From Balneolaceae bacterium (GTDB lineage: Bacteria > Bacteroidota > Rhodothermia > Balneolales > Balneolaceae): DNA of 64,000 bases. Location: contig VEMX01000002.1 in NCBI GenBank assembly GCA_009711805.1, positions 1 through 64,000 of the forward strand. The letters are read 5' to 3'. The notes below the pieces were generated by a model. The model did no database searches and was not told the origin of the DNA. It saw only the letters and a program-made list of their open reading frames with translations. Numbering within the stretch: position 1 is the first letter of the stretch; every line of letters begins with the position of its first letter. Of the stretch, positions 50,492 to 62,375 are shown one piece after another. The translations under genes and the position numbers were made by a program.

Positions 50492-51051
50492 ATGATGATC
50501 GCTTAAAAAGATATAATGATAGCATATATCTGACCGGTTTTATGGCCACAGGTAAAAGTACGACCGGCAAGGAATTGTCAAAAAGATTAGAGATGCCTTT
50601 CAGGGACCTGGATCAGATTATTGTAAATGGAGCGGGTAAATCCATACATAAGGTTTTTGAAGAAGATGGGGAACCTCATTTTAGAAAGCTGGAAAGAGAG
50701 TACCTGATGGAGCTTTCCCGGGTTTTTACCGGTGTTGTGGCTTTGGGGGGCGGAGCATTGCAAAACCAACAAATTATAGACCACCTGAAACTAAATGGTT
50801 TACTTATTTACATCAGTACCCCTTTTGAGATTATTGCAGACCGGGTATATAAAGACACAGAACGCCCTATTGTTTTTGATAAGCAGGGAAAAAGAAAAGA
50901 CAAAGATACTCTGTTCAAAGAGTTGAAAACCTTATATTCAGGGCGTAAAAAATTCTATGAACAGGCTCAAATTACGATCCATGCAGATCGGTATTCCTCC
51001 AATGAAAAGTTGATGGAAGCATTGCTGCTAAAAATAAAACAACATGTCTGA
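50488..51051 (+). CDS. aroK: Shikimate kinase
   Basis: A 187-residue P-loop kinase that phosphorylates shikimate in the chorismate pathway. Walker A is GFMATGKST (about 17-25), with FRDLDQ (shikimate-binding Asp), VVALGGGALQ and the lid region ERPI. The start ATG 50488 overlaps the rqcH stop by 4 bp, and aroB starts 8 bp before its own stop. It is slightly longer than usual (about 170) owing to an N-terminal extension. Confidence 0.93.
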   Translation: MNDDRLKRYNDSIYLTGFMATGKSTTGKELSKRLEMPFRDLDQIIVNGAGKSIHKVFEEDGEPHFRKLEREYLMELSRVFTGVVALGGGALQNQQIIDHLKLNGLLIYISTPFEIIADRVYKDTERPIVFDKQGKRKDKDTLFKELKTLYSGRKKFYEQAQITIHADRYSSNEKLMEALLLKIKQHV

Positions 51052-52138
51052 ATCTATACAGGTACAAACCTCAACTCAGGATAACTACTCTATTCATATT
51101 TCTGATAACCTGAGTAATGAATTTGCAAAATGTATGCAGCAGTATAGTTCCGACAAAGTATTTGTGATTATTGATGAGCTGGTCTTTGAGTATCATTACT
51201 CCAAACTGAAACCACTGCTTGAAGCAGCATTTTCACACATTCATGTATACAAAGTACCCCGTGGCGAAAGCAGCAAGAGCACTGCTGTGTATAATGAAAT
51301 TGTCAATTTTGTGTTAGAACAGGGGGTAGAACGTACTACTCCGCTGGTAGCAGCAGGGGGAGGGGTAACCGGAGACCTGGCAGGTTTTGTAGCTGCAACC
51401 GTTATGCGCGGTATTCCGCTCATTCATCTCCCCACTACCTTGCTGGCTATGGTGGATAGTTCTATTGGAGGAAAAACAGGCATCAATCACACAACAGGAA
51501 AAAACCTGATTGGAAGTTTCTATCAGCCGGATGCGGTATTTGCTGATGTTCGTTTTCTTGAAACCCTGGAAAGAAAAGAATGGGTGAACGGACTTAGCGA
51601 AGTACTTAAATACGGTATGATTGACAGTCCCGAAATTATCACCGAAGTAGGCACAATACTGGAGAACGGGGCTTTTGAAGAAGGGAACAAATGGCTGCCG
51701 CTGATCTATAAAAGTGCACAGATAAAAGTGGATATTGTGAAGCAGGATGTGCTGGAAGCCGGAAGCCGGGCCTACCTGAATTTCGGACATACCTTTGCTC
51801 ATGTAATTGAGCTTGAAGGAGGATACCAGACCTATTCTCATGGGGAGGCAGTTTTTGCCGGAATGTTTGGTGCTATACATTCGTCTAATACCTTAGGTGC
51901 AAATATAGATCCAGCCAATTTAAAGCAGTTTCTGTCGTTGTATAATTTACAGCTGAACTCTGTTAGCTCAGATACTAAAAAACTTGTACAGCTCATGCGG
52001 CGAGATAAAAAAGTGAAGGACCAACAAATCAAATTAGTTTTACTCCGGGAAATGGGGACGCCATTTGTATATGGTGTTGAAAATCCCGAAATGGTAGAAG
52101 CGTCCTGGAACTACATTTTAAATAGCTTTTCATCGTGA
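51044..52138 (+). CDS. aroB: 3-dehydroquinate synthase
   Basis: A 364-residue enzyme converting DAHP to 3-dehydroquinate with NAD+ and a divalent metal. VPRGESSKS, AAGGGVTGDLAGFVAAT, RGIPLIHLPTTLLAMVDSS and GGKTGINH are signature motifs. Metal ligands lie in EVLKYG and NFGHTFAHVIE, with HGEAV near residue 265. It overlaps aroK by 8 bp and tamB by 4 bp, placing two aromatic-amino-acid genes inside an envelope/RNA operon. Confidence 0.95.
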   Translation: MSESIQVQTSTQDNYSIHISDNLSNEFAKCMQQYSSDKVFVIIDELVFEYHYSKLKPLLEAAFSHIHVYKVPRGESSKSTAVYNEIVNFVLEQGVERTTPLVAAGGGVTGDLAGFVAATVMRGIPLIHLPTTLLAMVDSSIGGKTGINHTTGKNLIGSFYQPDAVFADVRFLETLERKEWVNGLSEVLKYGMIDSPEIITEVGTILENGAFEEGNKWLPLIYKSAQIKVDIVKQDVLEAGSRAYLNFGHTFAHVIELEGGYQTYSHGEAVFAGMFGAIHSSNTLGANIDPANLKQFLSLYNLQLNSVSSDTKKLVQLMRRDKKVKDQQIKLVLLREMGTPFVYGVENPEMVEASWNYILNSFSS

Positions 52139-55100
52139 CATACCTGCGTTGGATACATAAAAGTTGGTCTTTTTTCTGGAACTTTATAGGAGTCCTGGTA
52201 GTGACTTTGGTTTTGGTTTCTGGGATTTGCCTGGGGATACTACAGCTACAGCCCGTGAAAGACCGAATTGCCAACCGGCTTGTTGAGGGGTTTAATGAAA
52301 ACTACGACGGTACGCTAACCATTGGGGAGTTGGATGGATTTTTACCGTTGAATATTACTCTGAAGGATATAAAACTCTATTCAAACTCTACAGATCAGCT
52401 CCCGGTATTTAAAGCCGAGAGGATAGCTGCAAGGCTAAACGCACGCTCTTTTTTGTCAAAAAGGTATGAAGTAGAGACTTTGAATATTTTAGAACCAAAT
52501 TTTGTGATAGGTTCGGATTCTGCCGGGGCATTTAAAAAAGCGGTCACCAAAACAGATCAAACAGATTCAACCGGCTCCCCGGTACTCATAGAGGTTTTAG
52601 CCCCCTCTGTGCTTATACAAGAGGGATATGTACTGGTGCGGAATGTTAAACCGAATAGATTCAAAAAAGCCGAGACCGACAGTATATCCATCCGGAATAT
52701 TAACCTGAATATGTACCTGGAGTACACGCAGGCTCAACGGTTTTTGGATATAAATAATATAAGTTTTAACAGTCCGGAACTGGAAGTTGAAAACGCTACA
52801 ATGTTTGGACAGGTCTATAACGATAACCAGTTTCTGGAATTTAATGCCTTTAATGCCCGTATCGGGAATTCAGGTTTACAATTCAATGCCGAGGCAAAAG
52901 GAGTAGATATGTCGAAGCCTGAAATTTGGGAACAGATTAAGGCATCGCAGTTGGAAGTGAATCTTGAAGAACTTTTTGTTGAACCCAGACATATGGAAAA
53001 ACTGTATCCGGAACTCCCCCCCTTGAAGAAGTCTGTTTACGCTTCGTTGAAATCGGAGGGAACCCTTGATTCATTATGGTTCGATAAGCTACAGCTTTCT
53101 ATGGGAGAAAGTGCGATGATCAGTTATGGATATATAACCAATATGGAAACCCCCGAAAAGCTTGGTTACGGCCTGGAGCTTGAAACCCTGGTCATTACAG
53201 AAGATGAAGTACAGACATTTTCCAATCAACTAAACCCCAAACAGCTGGATGCCATTACACAGACTCGCGTGGAAGGCTTGGTTTCGGGAACACTGAACCA
53301 TATTAAAGGTAGAGTAGCACTTATAGGAGAACGGGGCAAACTGAGGCTGGATGGAGAAGTGGACTTTGGAGAACATAAAAGGTTTGACTTAAACATAGAG
53401 TCGGATTCTCTGGACATCGGGAAACTGTTGGTTGAAAATATAGCCTCTACTAATTTAAGTTTGAAAGGTTCTGCTTCGGGTGAAGGACTTACATTCACGG
53501 AAGGCGTTGGCAATGCCGAACTGAAAGCCAGTAGCGGAAATATCCAAAACAGGGATTTCGAAGAATTTCAGATCTCTGCTGATTGGGAAGGCGGTTACAT
53601 CAACCCGGTTTACAGTATTACCGTTGATAGTTCAAAACTTGAGGGAGATGGATATATAGACTTGCGAAAATCTCTTAAAGAAATATCTCTCACAGGCTCT
53701 GCTGAAGAATTTAATATGAATACACTGCTGGTGCTGGAAGGCATGCGGCCTTCACTGGTAGATCTTAAGTACGAAATATCGTTGAAAGGCCGCACATTGT
53801 ATGACTTATTTGGACAGCTGAGCCTGGATATTCCCCGGGCCTATGTAGGAGGAGATACGCTTAGCAGGCATCAGTTCTATCTCGACTTTAACGCACCCAA
53901 TGCACCAACCCGAAGCCTGAGACTCACCAGTACCGCCCTGGATGCAACTATTGAAGGAGATTACGACCCCGTTGATTTGTGGACGCTAAGCAAATACTGG
54001 GGAGGATATTTTAAAGAGAGGATCAATAAAGAAATTCTTTTTAATGATTCGGTGAAGGTGCAAACCCCCGTTTTGAATATAGAAGATCAATCTCTGACGT
54101 TAAGCGGCCGGTTTAAAAATCCATCGCTGCTTAAAGCATATTATCCAGCGTTTCCATCTATACAGACTGCTGCCCGTATTAACTCTTCTATAAATATAAG
54201 CCCGGAACGGATGCTGTTTAACGGCTCGGTTTCGGATCAGGAATTCAGGTATAATCAGTACAGTGCGGATACACTCTTAGCTCAGATAACAGGTAGCTTT
54301 CGATATCAAAATACGTTAAAGGAATTTTCGGGGCTGCAAGTTCAGGCTACGGCCGCTCGTTTTGAGCAGGGTATGGTAGAAGCCCGTGATTTTGAATTTT
54401 ACACTGAGTTAGACCGGGATTCCGTGACAATACGAACGGATATAGAGCAACTGGGAGAGGAAGCGTTTTTTGATATACGGGGAGAGGGTGAACTCAGGGA
54501 CAGTTTGATAGCTTTTAGAATTGATGAGTTTAACTTTGGAACAGAATACTATGCCTGGGAAAACAATGGTGCTCCTCTGTTTACATATGGGGAGGATCAG
54601 CGCTTTACATTGAAGAACTTTTCTTTTGAAAGCGGCAGCCAGTTTGTAGAGATGAAAGGTACCTTTAGCAGAAATGTGGAAGATTCGGTGGATTACATAA
54701 TCCGTGACCTGGATCTTTCCAGGATATCAGCAATGATCAATAAGCGTATCGAATTTGGAGGATTATTAAACGGAAGATTTACCACTCGTACGCTCACATC
54801 AGTACCCACTATACAGGGAAATATAGATGTAAAAAGACTTAGCCTGGATCAGAATATAGTTGGAGATGTCATCGTGAACAGCCGGTATAATTCGGAGTTG
54901 AATAGGTTTGATACTGAAATTGATATCAGCACGGATTCACTCAAGTATCCCAATTATTATGCCAATAATGAACGAAAAGGACAAGAGTTTGATATAAAAG
55001 GGTACATACAGGCACCGGAAGACGGATCATTTCCTGATTCGGATTCATTGTATTCTTTTGATTTGAATTTCGAAAATATTGATATGTGGATATTGCCTCT

Positions 55101-56820
55101 TATAGGCCCAAAAGTATTTCAGGAAGCTTCGGGGAGGTCGAATGGTAAGGGCGTATTCTGGGGTAATCTGGATACCTATGATTTTAATGTAGACTTTAAG
55201 GTTGGGGTAACCGATGCGGTCTATTTCCAGCCCAGGTTTTTGGATACCTACTACTACGGACAGGGGGAAATTACATTTAGCAGACACCAGGGATTAGATT
55301 TTAAAGACATCTACCTGATAGATCCTACAGGAGGGGAAGCTATACTCAGCGGGAATTTTGATTTTAATGATTTTGAGCCGCTCAGTTATATGGATATCCG
55401 CCTGGAGATGGATGATTTTCAATTTCTGAATAGTGAATTTGACCCTTCGCTTCCATTTTTCGGAAAAGCGTTTGGTTCGAGTATAGTAACCATAACCGGC
55501 AGTAACTTTGCTCCGGTTCTGACAACCGAAACTCCGCTGATTATATCTGATTTTTCAACCATCGGTATTCCACTGCTCGAAGAAACAGAATTGACTAAAG
55601 ACAGTAAATTCATCCGTTTTGTAAATTCTTTTGACCTGGCAGACCTCGATGGCGATGAGGAAAGAGAAGGGAAACCTCAAAATTTTGCAGGCCTGGAAGA
55701 TCTGAATCCCGAAGACCTTACCTTTGCCGAACGGTTTACCCTGGATCTCAGGTTCCTGGCCAGAAATCCTATGACGGTAGAGCTTATTTTTGATCCCGTT
55801 ACCGGAGATGTTATAACGGCCAATGGAACCGGCCGCCTGCGTATCCGGCTCGAAGATCAGGAAGTAAGCATGTTTGGGCAATTCGATATAACGGATGGTT
55901 CCTACCAATTTGTAAGTGGAGATATTTTTACCCGCCGGTTTGAACTACAGCCCGGGGGATCTATTATCTGGGAGGGAAGCCCGGGGAATGCGCGGTTGAA
56001 TTTGAATGCAGTATACAGGGCCCGGCCGGATATTAATACCCTTACTACGGCCAAGGCAGAGTTGAATGCCGAAAATTCACAACGGGTACCTGTAGAGTTG
56101 GTGTTGAATATAGGAGGAACACTAAGCAGTATTGAAAATGAATTCTTTTTCAGGCTCCCCAATACCTTTGAATCACGCCAAAACTCAACCCTGGCCACCC
56201 AGTTGAATGCTTTGAACAGAAATGAAGATGAAAAACTGATCCAGGCCACCAGCTTTCTACTGATGGATAATTTTATACCGGTTTCAAATTCAGGAACCGC
56301 TCAAACCAACACCCTGAGTGAGAATATTTCAGGGAGCAGGGCGGTCCTAAATCCGCTGATCTCCAACCAGGTAATCAGTCCATTACTGTCAAATCAGATA
56401 AATTCGTTATTGAACAGTGATTTAAGTAGCTTTGATGTAGATTTTAACCTCAATACATACAATCAGGTAGATCTTGGGGTAGCTTTGAGACTTTATAACG
56501 ATAAGCTTATTCTAAGGAGAGAAGGACAAATAACTGGAAGACAGTCGAATATTGGAGATCTTGGTGCTACATATCGAATTAATAAAACATTTTCAGTAAC
56601 AGCATTTCACAGGCAAGATCCAACATTTGGCACGCTAACCTCTACCGAAGAATCCCAACAGTCACAGGATATTAATGGAGTTGGGGTAGAAGCCACATTT
56701 AGCTTTAACAGATGGAATGAATTTTTTAAACGAATTAGTTCTCCATTTAAAAAGCTATTTGGAATTAAAAAGAAAAAAGAAGAAATAACAGAAAATAAGG
56801 AAGGGAATAACCCCTCTTAA
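52135..56820 (+). CDS. tamB: TamB-like translocation and assembly module protein
   Basis: A 1561-residue protein starting at GTG 52135 (GTGA overlap with the aroB stop). A single N-terminal helix (about 12-35, WNFIGVLVVTLVLVSGICLGIL) anchors it in the inner membrane. The rest is a very long beta-rich region of the AsmA/TamB groove type, and the C-terminal DUF490 domain (about 1150-1500, MTVELIFDPVTGDV, GQFDITDGSYQFVSGDIFTRRF, PVELVLNIGGTLSSIENEFFF) identifies TamB. Such proteins bridge the periplasm and are implicated in outer-membrane protein assembly or phospholipid transport. The last 40 residues are basic. No tamA gene with POTRA domains is adjacent, but a barrel protein is encoded two genes downstream. 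Confidence 0.9.
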   Translation: MTYLRWIHKSWSFFWNFIGVLVVTLVLVSGICLGILQLQPVKDRIANRLVEGFNENYDGTLTIGELDGFLPLNITLKDIKLYSNSTDQLPVFKAERIAARLNARSFLSKRYEVETLNILEPNFVIGSDSAGAFKKAVTKTDQTDSTGSPVLIEVLAPSVLIQEGYVLVRNVKPNRFKKAETDSISIRNINLNMYLEYTQAQRFLDINNISFNSPELEVENATMFGQVYNDNQFLEFNAFNARIGNSGLQFNAEAKGVDMSKPEIWEQIKASQLEVNLEELFVEPRHMEKLYPELPPLKKSVYASLKSEGTLDSLWFDKLQLSMGESAMISYGYITNMETPEKLGYGLELETLVITEDEVQTFSNQLNPKQLDAITQTRVEGLVSGTLNHIKGRVALIGERGKLRLDGEVDFGEHKRFDLNIESDSLDIGKLLVENIASTNLSLKGSASGEGLTFTEGVGNAELKASSGNIQNRDFEEFQISADWEGGYINPVYSITVDSSKLEGDGYIDLRKSLKEISLTGSAEEFNMNTLLVLEGMRPSLVDLKYEISLKGRTLYDLFGQLSLDIPRAYVGGDTLSRHQFYLDFNAPNAPTRSLRLTSTALDATIEGDYDPVDLWTLSKYWGGYFKERINKEILFNDSVKVQTPVLNIEDQSLTLSGRFKNPSLLKAYYPAFPSIQTAARINSSINISPERMLFNGSVSDQEFRYNQYSADTLLAQITGSFRYQNTLKEFSGLQVQATAARFEQGMVEARDFEFYTELDRDSVTIRTDIEQLGEEAFFDIRGEGELRDSLIAFRIDEFNFGTEYYAWENNGAPLFTYGEDQRFTLKNFSFESGSQFVEMKGTFSRNVEDSVDYIIRDLDLSRISAMINKRIEFGGLLNGRFTTRTLTSVPTIQGNIDVKRLSLDQNIVGDVIVNSRYNSELNRFDTEIDISTDSLKYPNYYANNERKGQEFDIKGYIQAPEDGSFPDSDSLYSFDLNFENIDMWILPLIGPKVFQEASGRSNGKGVFWGNLDTYDFNVDFKVGVTDAVYFQPRFLDTYYYGQGEITFSRHQGLDFKDIYLIDPTGGEAILSGNFDFNDFEPLSYMDIRLEMDDFQFLNSEFDPSLPFFGKAFGSSIVTITGSNFAPVLTTETPLIISDFSTIGIPLLEETELTKDSKFIRFVNSFDLADLDGDEEREGKPQNFAGLEDLNPEDLTFAERFTLDLRFLARNPMTVELIFDPVTGDVITANGTGRLRIRLEDQEVSMFGQFDITDGSYQFVSGDIFTRRFELQPGGSIIWEGSPGNARLNLNAVYRARPDINTLTTAKAELNAENSQRVPVELVLNIGGTLSSIENEFFFRLPNTFESRQNSTLATQLNALNRNEDEKLIQATSFLLMDNFIPVSNSGTAQTNTLSENISGSRAVLNPLISNQVISPLLSNQINSLLNSDLSSFDVDFNLNTYNQVDLGVALRLYNDKLILRREGQITGRQSNIGDLGATYRINKTFSVTAFHRQDPTFGTLTSTEESQQSQDINGVGVEATFSFNRWNEFFKRISSPFKKLFGIKKKKEEITENKEGNNPS

Positions 56821-56828
56821 GGTCATAA

Positions 56829-58991
56829 ATGAGCAAAAAGAAACGCTTGAATAATTTTGAAGAACTAATTGTAGATTTAATTACAAATAGTCCGGATTAC
56901 TCATTGACGCGCAATCAAATATCGAGTGCGTTGCAGTTGAAAAGTAAATCGGACAGAAAAAAACTAGATACAGCCATAAATCGTTTGGCTGGCAAAAACA
57001 TGGTTACAAAAAAAGGAAACCGTGTAGTATTAAGTATAGATGGCGAAAAAGATAAGGAGGATCGATCGGGCCGTCAGTTGAAAGGCCGCCTGGACATATC
57101 ACCCCGTGGAACCGGCTACGTAGATGTAGAAAAGTATGATCAGGATGTGCGGATTTCCAGAAAAGGAGTGGGAATGGCACTGAACGATGATATCGTAGAA
57201 ATTGAAGTATTTGGCCGTGATAAAAGAAGTGGCCAGCCTACCGGTAGAATTTTGGATGTCGTAAAACGAGGTAAACAAAATTATGTAGGAACACTCAAAA
57301 AAATAGGAAAGAATAATTACATCATTGAGTCGGATGCCAAATCGGTATATACCAACTTTTTTGTGCTGCCGGAATCTTTGAATGGAGCCAAGCCTGATGA
57401 CAAAGTGATGTTTAAACTGGAAAGCTGGGTGAGTCCCAAGGCTCTTCCTGAAGCTAAAATCACTTCAGTATTAGGTAAATCGGGAACCAATGAAGCAAAT
57501 GTGTTATCCATACTTGCTGAAAATGATTTGATAGCGGAGTTTCCACCTCAGGTTGAAGGATATGCAGAAAAAATCCCGGTTAAAATTCCAGATGACGAGT
57601 TCAGTCGCCGGCGGGATATACGAAATGAAACAGTATTCACCATTGATCCGGAAGATGCCAAAGACTTTGATGATGCATTAAGCATTAAGATGCTGGATAA
57701 TGGTAATTTCTATTTAGGTGTACATATTGCTGATGTAACACACTATGTAAAACCCGCTTCTATTTTAGATGATGAAGCCTATGAAAGAGGAACCAGTGTA
57801 TACCTGGTAGATCGTGTAATTCCCATGCTTCCTGAACGGCTCAGTAATGGAGTATGCAGCCTCCGCCCACATGAGGATAAGTTGACCTACAGCTGCTTTA
57901 TGGAAATTGATCCTAAAGGCAACTTAGTAGATTATTCGATAGATGAAACTGCTATTCACTCCGATCAACGCTTTACCTACGAAGAAGCTCAGAAAATTAT
58001 TAAAGGCAAAAAGCATAAGCTAAGTACAGAAGTGCAGATGGTAGCCGGGCTGGCAAAGACATTGATGGATAAACGCTTTAAAGAAGGAGCCATCGATTTT
58101 GATACTCCGGAGCCTAAGTTTGTACTGGATAAGAAAGGAAAACCAATTAAAGTTATCTTAAAAGAGCGGCTGTTTACTCATCGCCTGGTTGAAGAATGTA
58201 TGTTAATGGCGAACAAGACTGTAGCTACACATATCGAAAATTTAAGAAAACGATCAGGCAAGAAACGATCTAAAGATCTTTTTCCTTTCTTTTATCGTGT
58301 GCACGATAAGCCCGACAATGAAAAGCTGGCCGGAATTGCCGAGCAAGTTAAGCCCGTTGGGATAAAATTTGAGGTGCAAAATAAGGTCACCCCAAAGAAA
58401 ATAAACAACCTGTTGAAAAAAGTGGAAAATACAAACCTGGAATACATCGTTAACGGTCTGATGTTGCGAGCAATGTCGAAGGCAGAATATTCTCCGGATA
58501 ACATAGGACACTTTGGACTCGGATTTCCGCATTATGCACATTTTACCAGTCCTATCCGGCGTTACCCGGATGTAATTGTTCATCGTATCTTAAAAGGATA
58601 TTCGGCAGGTGTACCGGCTTACGACCACAACACCCTTAAGAAAGATGGAAAGCATTGCAGTGAACGAGAAAAAGTAGCTGTTGATGCTGAAAGAGACTCA
58701 GTAAAATTAAAGCAGGTTGAGTTTCTTAGCTCCAGAATAGGAGAAACTTTTAAAGGGGTTATCAGTGGAGTAATGGAACGGGGAATCTTTATTAACCTCA
58801 ACGACATTCATTGTGAAGGCATGATTCGAGTTAGTGATTTGAAAGGCGATTATTTTGTGTATGACCAAAAAAGCCACTCATTAGTAGGGCGAAAAAGTGG
58901 TAAAAAATATCAGCTTGGAAATGAAATTCGGGTTCGTGTTAAAAGCACAAACATTCAAAAAAGACAAATAGACTTTGCTTTAGTAAAATAA
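56829..58991 (+). CDS. rnr: Ribonuclease R
   Basis: A 720-residue 3'-5' exoribonuclease that degrades structured RNA. An N-terminal winged helix (about 5-66) precedes two cold-shock domains (about 80-230). The RNB domain follows, with TIDPEDAKDFDDALS (near 271) holding the catalytic Asp residues and HFTSPIRRYPDVIVHR near 585. A C-terminal S1 domain (about 635-718) has GVISGVMERGIFINL. The gene begins 8 bp after tamB. Confidence 0.95.
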   Translation: MSKKKRLNNFEELIVDLITNSPDYSLTRNQISSALQLKSKSDRKKLDTAINRLAGKNMVTKKGNRVVLSIDGEKDKEDRSGRQLKGRLDISPRGTGYVDVEKYDQDVRISRKGVGMALNDDIVEIEVFGRDKRSGQPTGRILDVVKRGKQNYVGTLKKIGKNNYIIESDAKSVYTNFFVLPESLNGAKPDDKVMFKLESWVSPKALPEAKITSVLGKSGTNEANVLSILAENDLIAEFPPQVEGYAEKIPVKIPDDEFSRRRDIRNETVFTIDPEDAKDFDDALSIKMLDNGNFYLGVHIADVTHYVKPASILDDEAYERGTSVYLVDRVIPMLPERLSNGVCSLRPHEDKLTYSCFMEIDPKGNLVDYSIDETAIHSDQRFTYEEAQKIIKGKKHKLSTEVQMVAGLAKTLMDKRFKEGAIDFDTPEPKFVLDKKGKPIKVILKERLFTHRLVEECMLMANKTVATHIENLRKRSGKKRSKDLFPFFYRVHDKPDNEKLAGIAEQVKPVGIKFEVQNKVTPKKINNLLKKVENTNLEYIVNGLMLRAMSKAEYSPDNIGHFGLGFPHYAHFTSPIRRYPDVIVHRILKGYSAGVPAYDHNTLKKDGKHCSEREKVAVDAERDSVKLKQVEFLSSRIGETFKGVISGVMERGIFINLNDIHCEGMIRVSDLKGDYFVYDQKSHSLVGRKSGKKYQLGNEIRVRVKSTNIQKRQIDFALVK

Positions 58992-59011: not shown

Positions 59012-62000
59012 ATGAAAACCAAGCTCTTATCCGTTGTATCATTTTTAGTTGTATTTTTAATTGTCGGTGCACAAGTAGCTGAGGCACAATATTTCTCATT
59101 CGGGAAAAACAGGGTGCAATATCAGGAATTTGAATGGCGGTATATAGAATCCCAGCACTTTGATGTATACTACTATGGGAAAAAGAACTACGAGCTTGCC
59201 GAGTTTTCAGCAAAAAGTGTAGAATCTGCCTATCAACAGCTCAAGAATGATTTTAACCACGAGATATCGAGCCGCTTAACACTTATTATCTATGATTCGC
59301 ACAACGATTTCTCCCAAACTAATGTGGTTAACCTGCCTACAAGTGCAGAGGGAATAGGAGGGGTAACCGATAAATTAAAAAACAGGATGACAGTTCCTTT
59401 TAACGGAGATTATGCCGATTTCCGCCGGACGTTGCATCATGAGCTGGTACATGCTGTTTTTAATGATATGTTTTATGGCGGATCGTTGAATTCTATTATT
59501 CAAAATAACATTCAATTGGTATTTCCCCTCTGGTTTGAGGAAGGTTTGGCAGAGTATATGGCCCTTGGGTGGGATACCAACACAGATATGTTTATTCGTG
59601 ATGCCGTCATCAATAACTTCCTGCCTGATATTCAGTTTCTCGGAGGCTACTTTGCTTACAGAGGCGGTCAATCGGTTTGGAATTATATTGAAGAAGAATA
59701 CGGCCGGCCGAAAATTGCAGAAATTCTTGGACGTATTAAAAATTCCCGAAGTATAGAAGTAGGCTTTTCTCAATCACTGGGGCTCACCATAGAGGAACTA
59801 TCCGAAAACTGGGAAAATGCACTACAGGAACGCTACTACCCCGAAGTTGCAGAACGAGAACGTACCGACGCCATCGCAACTTTACTGACCGAACGCGGAG
59901 CATTTGGAACCTATAATACCAGTCCGTCTATTTCTCCTCAGGGCGATAAAATTGCATTTATAACCAACAGCCGTGGATACTTTGATGTGATAGTGATTAG
60001 CGCTCTGAATGGTAAAAAGCTGAAAACATTGGTTGAGGGAGAAGATAACCCCGACTTTGAAGAGCTTAATATTTTAAATCCAAATATCGCATGGTCGCCA
60101 GATGGGACAAAGTTATCAATGTCAACCAAGTCGAAAGGAAGAGACGAGCTGGCTTTTATCGATTACTCCACCAAGAAAATTACCAAAGTACAACTTCCAG
60201 ATCTTGATGCCATTAGTTCTGTGGCATGGTCACCCGATGGTGATAAGGTTGCCTTTGACGGAAATATTGGGCCTTACCAGGATATTTTTGTGTATGATAT
60301 TTCTAAGAAGAAATTAACGAACCTGACCCGTGATCTCTTTTCGGATACACAGCCCGCATGGAGCGCAGATTCCAAAAGTGTGTATTTCACCTCCGATCGC
60401 GGAGATAAAATCCAGTTGGGTAAATATGGATCCGGTTATGATTTGCTTTCAGAGCTCTCCATGTATCAAACTGATATTTATAAAGTGGATATTGAATCCA
60501 AAAAAGCTACCCGATTAACCAATACTCCGGGATGGAATGAAAAAGGAGTTCAATCAACACTGGATGATCGCCTGGTTTTTATATCTGACCAAAATGGAAT
60601 ACAGAATATTTATGAATTTGATGTAGCAACCAGAACCATCACTCCGCTTACAAATCTCCAGACCGGTGCTATTCAAATATCGATGAGTGCTGATGGTTCC
60701 CGGTTGGCACTCAATTCTTATAATGAAGGCTACCTGGATGTATTTCTATTGAAATCACCCCTGCAGCGAGCCAAAACAAAAGAGCCTTCACTGAGCTATT
60801 GGGCTAAACGGCGAAATACTGAGACCCCGGCTCAACGAGTTCCTGCAACCTTATATGCCCGGCAAATGTTTGATGAAGGTCTTGCCATGTCGGAAGAAAT
60901 TGAAACGGTAGAGGACGATGTAGAACAGGAAGAAGCCGAAGAGAATGCCGATGAAGTAGACTTCAGAAATTATGTGTTTTCAACCGAAGTTATTGAAGAC
61001 TCTACCATAGAGCTCAAAGATATTGACAGCTTTAATCCCGAAAATAATATAACTGAGGATGGGAAGTATCAGCCGAAAGAATACAGGCTCCGGTTTTCAA
61101 CTGATATTGCCTACAGCCCTTCAATAATGGCTTCCACCTATGGTACAAATGCCTTAACACAGTTTATTATCAGTGATCTGTTGGGAGATCACAAGATCTC
61201 GATAGGAACAAACTTTGTATTTGATTTAAGAAACAGTGATTACTCCTTTCAGTACGGTTATCTCAAAAATCGAATGAATTATTTTGTTTCTTACTCTCAC
61301 CGCTCCAGACGATATCAGACTTTTTATGGGGAAGTACTCCGATACAGAAATTTTGGAGGAAGTTTCAACCTGCAGTATCCCATAAATAAATTTAAACGGC
61401 TTGATTTTGGTTTTTCAATAATTGGAATCACACAAGATTATAGTTCTGTCACCGAAAGGTACCGTGGGGCTACGGTTTCACAGAATCGTTTGGAAAACGA
61501 TAAAAGTCTTTTACTGTATCCCGAGTTCATATTTACAAGCGATAACACCTTGCCCGGTTTCCTAACCCCTCGTGGAGGAAGGAGATATTCGATAGGGGTA
61601 TCATCAAGCCCTGGTGTGGGGGATAATGCCCCTCTGTTTGCTTCGGTATTGGGAGATTTCAGGCAGTATGTAAATCTTGGCAGCAATTATTCGCTGGCTT
61701 TTAGAGGCTCCGGTGCTGTCTCAGTGGGTAAAGATTCACAAACGTATTTTATGGGAGGGCGCCTGGGATGGATCAACCAGGAGTTTAGTAATAATGGTCT
61801 TAGTTTCGATCAACTCACAGACAATCTCTTTACCCTTCCTGCACTGCCTGTTCGGGGATACGCCTATAACTCCATCTATGGAAATAAGTTTTCACTGATA
61901 AATGCAGAATTCCGATTTCCTCTTTTTGCTGCGGTTGTACCCGGTGCTATACCCATTCTGCCCTTCTACAACATGACCGGGGTTGCTTTTTTAGATGTAG

Positions 62001-62317
62001 GAACTGCCTGGGGACAACGGATAAATTATGGCTTAAAGGAAGCTCCGGATCCTAATAGTGCAAATGTTGTAAATGAGAAAGGGCTCGACTTTCTGGTGGC
62101 TGAACAGAAAACAGGTTATTTTGAAATACCTACAGAGGCTGGAAGTGAATTCTTTGAAGCTTCCTATATAGAAGGCGATATACTTATAGGGGCCGGCTTT
62201 GGTTTAAGAACCATCCTATTGGGTTTACCCTTTAGGTATGATGTAGGATGGCCCTACGATCGCACCGGTTTCCTGGATGAACCTGTTCACTACTTTTCTA
62301 TTGGTATAGATTTCTAA
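59012..62317 (+). CDS. Fusion of metallopeptidase, TolB-like propeller and outer-membrane barrel
   Basis: An 1101-residue protein with a signal peptide (SVVSFLVVFLIVGAQVAEAQ). Residues about 30-290 hold a gluzincin-like peptidase domain: HHELVHAVF supplies HExxH (His143, Glu144, His147) and WFEEGLAEY the third ligand (Glu177). About 300-590 is a PD40/TolB-like propeller with repeated IAWSPDGTKL, VAWSPDGDKVAF and PAWSADSKSVYF blades. An acidic linker (about 625-660) follows. About 690-1101 is an Omp85/BamA-like barrel ending GIDF with a terminal Phe, including GFLTPRGGRRYSI and PVRGYAYNSIYGN. There are no POTRA domains. It lies 20 bp after rnr and closes the tamB operon. It may assemble or process outer-membrane or surface proteins; this is inferred. 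Confidence 0.82.
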   Translation: MKTKLLSVVSFLVVFLIVGAQVAEAQYFSFGKNRVQYQEFEWRYIESQHFDVYYYGKKNYELAEFSAKSVESAYQQLKNDFNHEISSRLTLIIYDSHNDFSQTNVVNLPTSAEGIGGVTDKLKNRMTVPFNGDYADFRRTLHHELVHAVFNDMFYGGSLNSIIQNNIQLVFPLWFEEGLAEYMALGWDTNTDMFIRDAVINNFLPDIQFLGGYFAYRGGQSVWNYIEEEYGRPKIAEILGRIKNSRSIEVGFSQSLGLTIEELSENWENALQERYYPEVAERERTDAIATLLTERGAFGTYNTSPSISPQGDKIAFITNSRGYFDVIVISALNGKKLKTLVEGEDNPDFEELNILNPNIAWSPDGTKLSMSTKSKGRDELAFIDYSTKKITKVQLPDLDAISSVAWSPDGDKVAFDGNIGPYQDIFVYDISKKKLTNLTRDLFSDTQPAWSADSKSVYFTSDRGDKIQLGKYGSGYDLLSELSMYQTDIYKVDIESKKATRLTNTPGWNEKGVQSTLDDRLVFISDQNGIQNIYEFDVATRTITPLTNLQTGAIQISMSADGSRLALNSYNEGYLDVFLLKSPLQRAKTKEPSLSYWAKRRNTETPAQRVPATLYARQMFDEGLAMSEEIETVEDDVEQEEAEENADEVDFRNYVFSTEVIEDSTIELKDIDSFNPENNITEDGKYQPKEYRLRFSTDIAYSPSIMASTYGTNALTQFIISDLLGDHKISIGTNFVFDLRNSDYSFQYGYLKNRMNYFVSYSHRSRRYQTFYGEVLRYRNFGGSFNLQYPINKFKRLDFGFSIIGITQDYSSVTERYRGATVSQNRLENDKSLLLYPEFIFTSDNTLPGFLTPRGGRRYSIGVSSSPGVGDNAPLFASVLGDFRQYVNLGSNYSLAFRGSGAVSVGKDSQTYFMGGRLGWINQEFSNNGLSFDQLTDNLFTLPALPVRGYAYNSIYGNKFSLINAEFRFPLFAAVVPGAIPILPFYNMTGVAFLDVGTAWGQRINYGLKEAPDPNSANVVNEKGLDFLVAEQKTGYFEIPTEAGSEFFEASYIEGDILIGAGFGLRTILLGLPFRYDVGWPYDRTGFLDEPVHYFSIGIDF

Positions 62318-62343: not shown

Positions 62344-62375
62344 AAATGGGATGTTTTATCGACATCCCATTTTTT
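62344..62375 (+). terminator. Terminator of the rqcH-tamB operon
   Basis: ATGGGATGT and ACATCCCAT form a 9-bp stem (extendable by AA/TT) with a 7-base loop, followed by six Ts. It lies 26 bp after the fusion gene's stop and just before the converging methyltransferase gene. Confidence 0.85.

Follow-up and report, generated by a model that had tools for sequence, protein, structure and literature searches.

The window, which is the whole 64,000-nucleotide stretch of Balneolaceae bacterium DNA analysed here (contig VEMX01000002.1), encodes a 1101-aa protein in which a gluzincin-type peptidase domain, a TolB-like propeller and an Omp85 barrel are joined, with an active site that is conserved among its orthologues and a gene position, behind tamB and rnr, that recurs in distant lineages. 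For this peptidase–propeller–Omp85 protein (hereafter MPO) we tentatively favour, at somewhat less than an even chance, a role as a periplasm-facing assembly and quality-control station for outer-membrane proteins, which would unite counterparts of BepA, BamB/TolB and BamA in one chain. The features on which the argument draws are as follows.

51044–52138, + strand: aroB-like gene, overlapping the tamB start (ORF list)
52135–56820, + strand: TamB/AsmA-like protein, 1561 aa, second TamB relative of the genome (profile searches)
56829–58991, + strand: rnr, RNase R, between tamB and MPO (Pfam)
59012–62317, + strand: MPO, Peptidase_MA–TolB-like propeller–Omp85 barrel protein, ATG start (ORF, Pfam, AlphaFold model)
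59012–59089, + strand: putative Sec-type signal peptide, residues ~1–26 (judged by eye; low-confidence N-terminus in the model)
59090–59848, + strand: gluzincin-type peptidase domain, residues 27–279 (Peptidase_MA_2; isolated-domain fold search)
59438–59452, + strand: HELVH (HExxH), residues 143–147 (alignments of homologues)
59540–59542, + strand: E177 in EEGLAEY, presumed third zinc ligand (alignments of homologues)
59864–60775, + strand: six-bladed TolB-type beta-propeller, residues 285–588 (AlphaFold model, fold search)
60776–61096, + strand: variable acidic linker, residues 589–695 (alignment; pLDDT <50 at 625–672)
61097–62314, + strand: Omp85/BamA-type barrel, residues 696–1101, with invariant R948-G949 (PF01103, alignment, model)
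62344–62372, + strand: terminator-like hairpin of 12 pairs followed by a T run, 3' of MPO, closing the gene run

The preliminary description, made from the sequence alone, had read a metallopeptidase, a propeller and a C-terminal barrel lacking POTRA domains in this single frame, and profile searches, AlphaFold modelling and superposition bear it out. Pfam places Peptidase_MA_2 at residues 73–271 (45.1 bits; cut-off 32.4) and recognises PD40 repeats (50.7 bits; cut-off 20.9). Omp85 was unlisted in the whole-protein Pfam scan, but the genome search with PF01103 passed its cut-off at 61268–62314 (45.8 bits against 24), and the structural model settled the matter. Three stretches match the NCBIfam propeller_TolB model under its equivalog cut-off, and the TolB equivalog TIGR02800 is not reached (139.5 bits against 343). 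The Pfam scan found no POTRA domain (PF07244) in MPO, and there is no NCBIfam match to the BamA equivalog OM_YaeT.

The AlphaFold model (pLDDT 85.5, pTM 0.84, from a 68-sequence alignment) shows a mixed helical domain that leads into a propeller, then a disordered acidic segment and finally, at the C-terminus, a barrel. Residues 312–588 superpose on TolB (VIA-align, Z 28.3, 2.3 Å, 243 aligned, 26% identity). Structure prediction of the barrel, a check proposed at the outset, identifies residues 696–1101 as BamA-type: they superpose on BamA barrels at Z ~22, including that of Flavobacterium johnsoniae (9n2e_A; Z 21.8, 3.8 Å, 293 aligned). For the peptidase domain, a profile of MPO homologues (A6) retrieved nothing from PDB sequences up to E = 1, and a fold search was needed instead. 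Modelled alone (pLDDT 88.9), the domain resembles M9 collagenase (Z 17.3, 3.9 Å, 231 aligned) and M1 aminopeptidase (Z ~14). Both of these families are gluzincins with an HExxH motif and a downstream glutamate, and the model thus predicts a gluzincin fold for MPO; all 68 homologous peptidase domains match PF13485.

The HExxH motif and its downstream glutamate correspond to H143-E144-H147 and E177. All four residues are identical in the 31 sequences of the order-level alignment (A1), which comprises the window protein and 30 of 35 order-level frames, with three full-length near-duplicates (L057, L070, L075) and two truncated frames (L078, L081) omitted. In an alignment reaching across order, class and phylum (A3), the two glutamates are kept in 27/27 sequences and both HExxH histidines in 26/27, so that the free variation among homologues that would have spoken against the preliminary description is not seen. 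A larger alignment (A4; 68 sequences, drawing on the 67 complete enough among the best 80 of at least 460 confirmed places) retains all four residues in every member, although its homologues, like those of A6, were partly gathered with a pattern containing the EG motif, which biases E177 there; A1 and A3 were chosen otherwise. Mean pairwise identity is highest in the peptidase domain (0.51), followed by the propeller (0.415) and the barrel (0.41), and lowest in the linker (0.17). A catalytically dead fusion can be dismissed for the order, judging from the invariant active site, and a chance motif is ruled out by full-length orthologues at 50–72% identity. One distant homologue (L120:8115-11405, – strand) keeps the glutamates, has lost both HExxH histidines, the only such case, and is presumably inactive; because of this loss, catalysis appears not to be indispensable everywhere.

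MPO stands last in a head-to-tail series of genes with tiny gaps or overlaps (rqcH-like, aroK-like, aroB-like, tamB, rnr, MPO), the first three names being our presumptive assignments. The aroB-like gene shares 4 bases with the start of tamB, 8 bases separate tamB from rnr, and 20 bases separate rnr from MPO. The preliminary description had MPO closing a tamB operon and lying beside tamB; the first part agrees with its place at the end of a tight run with a hairpin after it, and the second is inexact, as rnr intervenes. The TamB-like protein of the window does not itself reach the PF04357 cut-off. We nevertheless class it as a TamB relative, because 20 of the 38 genomes examined do have a PF04357 hit at their MPO locus and because profile comparison aligns it with the other TamB of the genome (beside C18) at 98% probability over approximately the first 590 columns.

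MPO appears from these searches to be near-universal in its order and to reach other lineages of the FCB group. A single-protein search recovered it, full-length or split over adjacent pieces or contigs, in 36 of 38 order genomes (own genome included), small ones of 1.5–2.2 Mb among them. The exceptions are a genome with a broken set of matches (G037) and one, 78% complete, with no strong match (G009). The closest named relatives among the matches listed are from Gracilimonas sp. (70%) and other Balneolaceae. Across the phylum the MPO model A1 matches 174 of 296 genomes; this tally, like that of 145/145, includes paralogue-like matches, with a best E of only ~1e-77 to 1e-113 in 26/174 and 35/145 genomes, respectively, and with listed matches near 1e-110 spanning the peptidase and propeller only.

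The gene order is similarly persistent. Of 36 MPO loci in related genomes, 35 have rnr as the gene immediately preceding MPO, 33 have tamB ahead of rnr, and 31 have an aroB-like gene further upstream; the contig ends wherever one of these is missing. Beyond the order, among the matches listed for 104 MPO-bearing genomes of the class and phylum, the best TamB match falls on the same strand 2.0–2.6 kb upstream of MPO in 38, a count in which 11 of the 104 have no TamB match listed and contig ends hide some pairs. All 38 are among the 86 genomes outside the class and represent seven families, whereas adjacency was seen in 0/18 genomes of other orders of the same class, again among the matches listed. 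Both tamB and rnr precede MPO on the same strand at 32 of the best 80 of at least 460 places, including in Ignavibacteria. G004 and G022, which are small, belong to a single genus and have no PF04357 match, also retain the trio (loci L053 and L052). The tamB–MPO link is real as gene order and is not obligatory; given the recurrence of the trio in seven families of other classes, MPO may plausibly be linked to TamB in function as well.

One way to read this linkage is that MPO is co-transcribed by inheritance alone and is functionally unrelated to TamB, its propeller serving in envelope tethering in the manner of TolB–Pal. We consider this unlikely. It would accord with the TolB-like propeller (Z 28), with the finding that no protein of the own genome passes the TolB equivalog cut-off, and with a wider occurrence of the tamB–rnr pair than of the trio: of 19 loci chosen because tamB is not beside MPO there, 7 (L202, L203, L204, L208, L211, L215, L219) have rnr directly after tamB and no MPO. 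Against it, the trio is kept where the other flanks differ: in loci L109–L113 two other genes precede tamB in place of the aroK–aroB pair of the window's order, and the trio is therefore not merely part of one longer frozen block.

The opposite reading gives the solitary TamB, encoded two genes before MPO, a dedicated partner in the outer membrane, namely MPO: the C-terminal strands of TamB would pair with the barrel, and the peptidase–propeller portion would replace POTRA domains. The attraction of this reading lies in the trio being present within the order at 33 of 36 loci (the remaining three reach contig edges) and in at least 38 of the 86 genomes from outside the class, in hybrid barrels having been modelled for TamB–BamA and TamB–TamL (parts of PMC13382580 and PMC12045153), and in an Omp85 neighbour being recognised at only one of the 19 loci with tamB apart from MPO, in a search from four own-genome sequences that may miss weak neighbours. 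TamB nevertheless occurs without MPO (the TamB model A5 matches 281 of the 296 phylum genomes, against 174 for A1), adjacency is absent in the other orders of the class, rnr alone adjoins tamB in the seven loci above, and the own genome offers other candidate partners; this makes a dedicated partnership quite unlikely. Equally doubtful to us is its extension to a proofreading TAM, in which the solitary TamB of Balneolaceae and Ignavibacteria-type bacteria would work with MPO as barrel, client-holding propeller and proteolytic editor in place of POTRA.

Those candidate partners are found among the seven Omp85 places of the genome (PF01103 search). A 649-aa POTRA-bearing Omp85 protein (C18) is TamA-like, and the gene directly after it encodes a TamB above the PF04357 cut-off; an 815-aa Omp85 protein with POTRA domains (C10; PF07244) stands alone and has TamL as its best NCBIfam match (332 bits, cut-off 400); and BamA (C51) exceeds the OM_YaeT cut-off at 369 bits. 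Three further Omp85 proteins are encoded (C1, C12, C19). One of them, of 1244 aa, joins a calcineurin-like phosphoesterase to an Omp85 barrel (C12; L013:3239-6973, – strand). The phosphoesterase family, PF00149, is called a metalloprotease in the accessible part of PMC4104836, and is described by Pfam as a phosphoesterase. The earlier suggestion that MPO substitutes for a missing TamA consequently falls, as the genome has TamA-like, TamL-like and BamA proteins, the first beside a second tamB. MPO resembles TamA and TamL in its Omp85 barrel and in having tamB in its neighbourhood, but it is neither, because POTRA domains were absent on testing. By eye, its first 30 residues contain no Cys and no lipobox, and hence the N-terminal lipidated Cys typical of TamL is lacking. 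In the own and related genomes taken together, PF04357 is matched in 36/38, and lies within 4.5 kb of an Omp85 protein other than MPO in 29/38.

By architecture, MPO is probably a member of the WD40-Omp85 subfamily with an added, conserved peptidase. That subfamily was described as having a TolB-like propeller, reminiscent of a BamA–BamB fusion (Heinz and Lithgow, 2014; PMC4104836, available text), and its POTRA-less Omp85 barrel and N-terminal TolB-like propeller are both present in MPO. The word 'peptidase' has no occurrence in the portion of PMC4104836 at hand, which names no peptidase domain for WD40-Omp85; the same portion gives the additional Omp85 subfamilies a genus-level distribution only, in contrast to the order-wide architecture of MPO. 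Both the WD40 and the metalloprotease subfamilies were still 'not well characterised' in 2024 (PMC11116518, in part), and our literature searches returned no account of a peptidase–propeller–Omp85 protein.

PlpD, a patatin–Omp85 protein, likewise carries an enzyme domain N-terminal to its barrel, but combines patatin with one POTRA and no propeller, where MPO has a peptidase, a propeller and no POTRA. The early PlpD model suggests that MPO might display or release its peptidase at the cell surface. The preliminary description had similarly envisaged a surface-processing machine, coupling protease and barrel and linked to tamB; protease, barrel and linkage are supported by the 31/31 active-site residues and the conserved trio, while secretion would be conjectural. 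The enzyme–Omp85 fusion fits surface display, but the PlpD enzyme domain was shown to stay periplasmic (PMC11116518, as available), and in MPO two large folded domains precede a barrel without POTRA; we regard display as very unlikely.

A substrate-specific maturation protease, trimming proteins that cross or enter the outer membrane and using the barrel as anchor or exit, seems to us rather unlikely. The M9/M1-type fold and invariant catalytic residues would suit such an enzyme, and the genome encodes a second protein of the peptidase–propeller type, which has a barrel-like tail and suggests different clients. The neighbours of MPO, however, look like housekeeping genes, with no conserved candidate substrate gene adjoining it. 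The second protein (C47; L228:2203-5565, + strand) has 1120 aa, with Peptidase_MA_2, a propeller and a barrel-like C-terminus unlisted by PF01103, and its profile comparison with MPO covers the peptidase and propeller only.

We return to the quality-control role, which we prefer because the enzyme domain of PlpD is periplasmic, because BepA probably acts at BAM and because the propellers of BamB and TolB provide docking for partners in the periplasm (PMC4104836, in part). It is further supported by the domain models, the kept active site, the peptidase being the best-conserved region, the BamA-like barrel, the tamB linkage and the near-universal occurrence in the order. BepA, the M48 metallopeptidase of Escherichia coli, acts on LptD, probably while LptD is at the BAM complex (PMC8423444, accessible text). 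Like BepA, MPO would be a zinc peptidase, its proposed targets being outer-membrane proteins engaged with a BamA-type barrel; BepA is a separate soluble protein, whereas the peptidase of MPO is of the Peptidase_MA_2 family and covalently fused, and the two are analogous in job only. The likeness to TolB lies in the six-bladed propeller, and the difference in the unreached equivalog score and the fusion to peptidase and barrel.

A Sec signal would send MPO to the periplasm, its C-terminal BamA-type barrel residing in the outer membrane while a flexible acidic linker lets the presumed zinc peptidase and the TolB-like propeller hang into the periplasm. Like BamB or TolB, the propeller would capture a client or partner, and the barrel would engage or insert the client, although without POTRA domains it may be only an anchor. 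Clients that stall or misassemble would be removed by the gluzincin, a task that on the E. coli BAM falls to a separate protein, BepA.

In the Balneolaceae lineage, the lack of a tamA next to tamB is thus no sign that TamA is missing. The conserved catalytic residues of MPO and its linkage to tamB give the WD40-type Omp85 proteins, one of ten published bacterial subfamilies and without an established function (PMC11116518, in part), a testable hypothesis: that they may act in outer-membrane protein assembly with a built-in protease.
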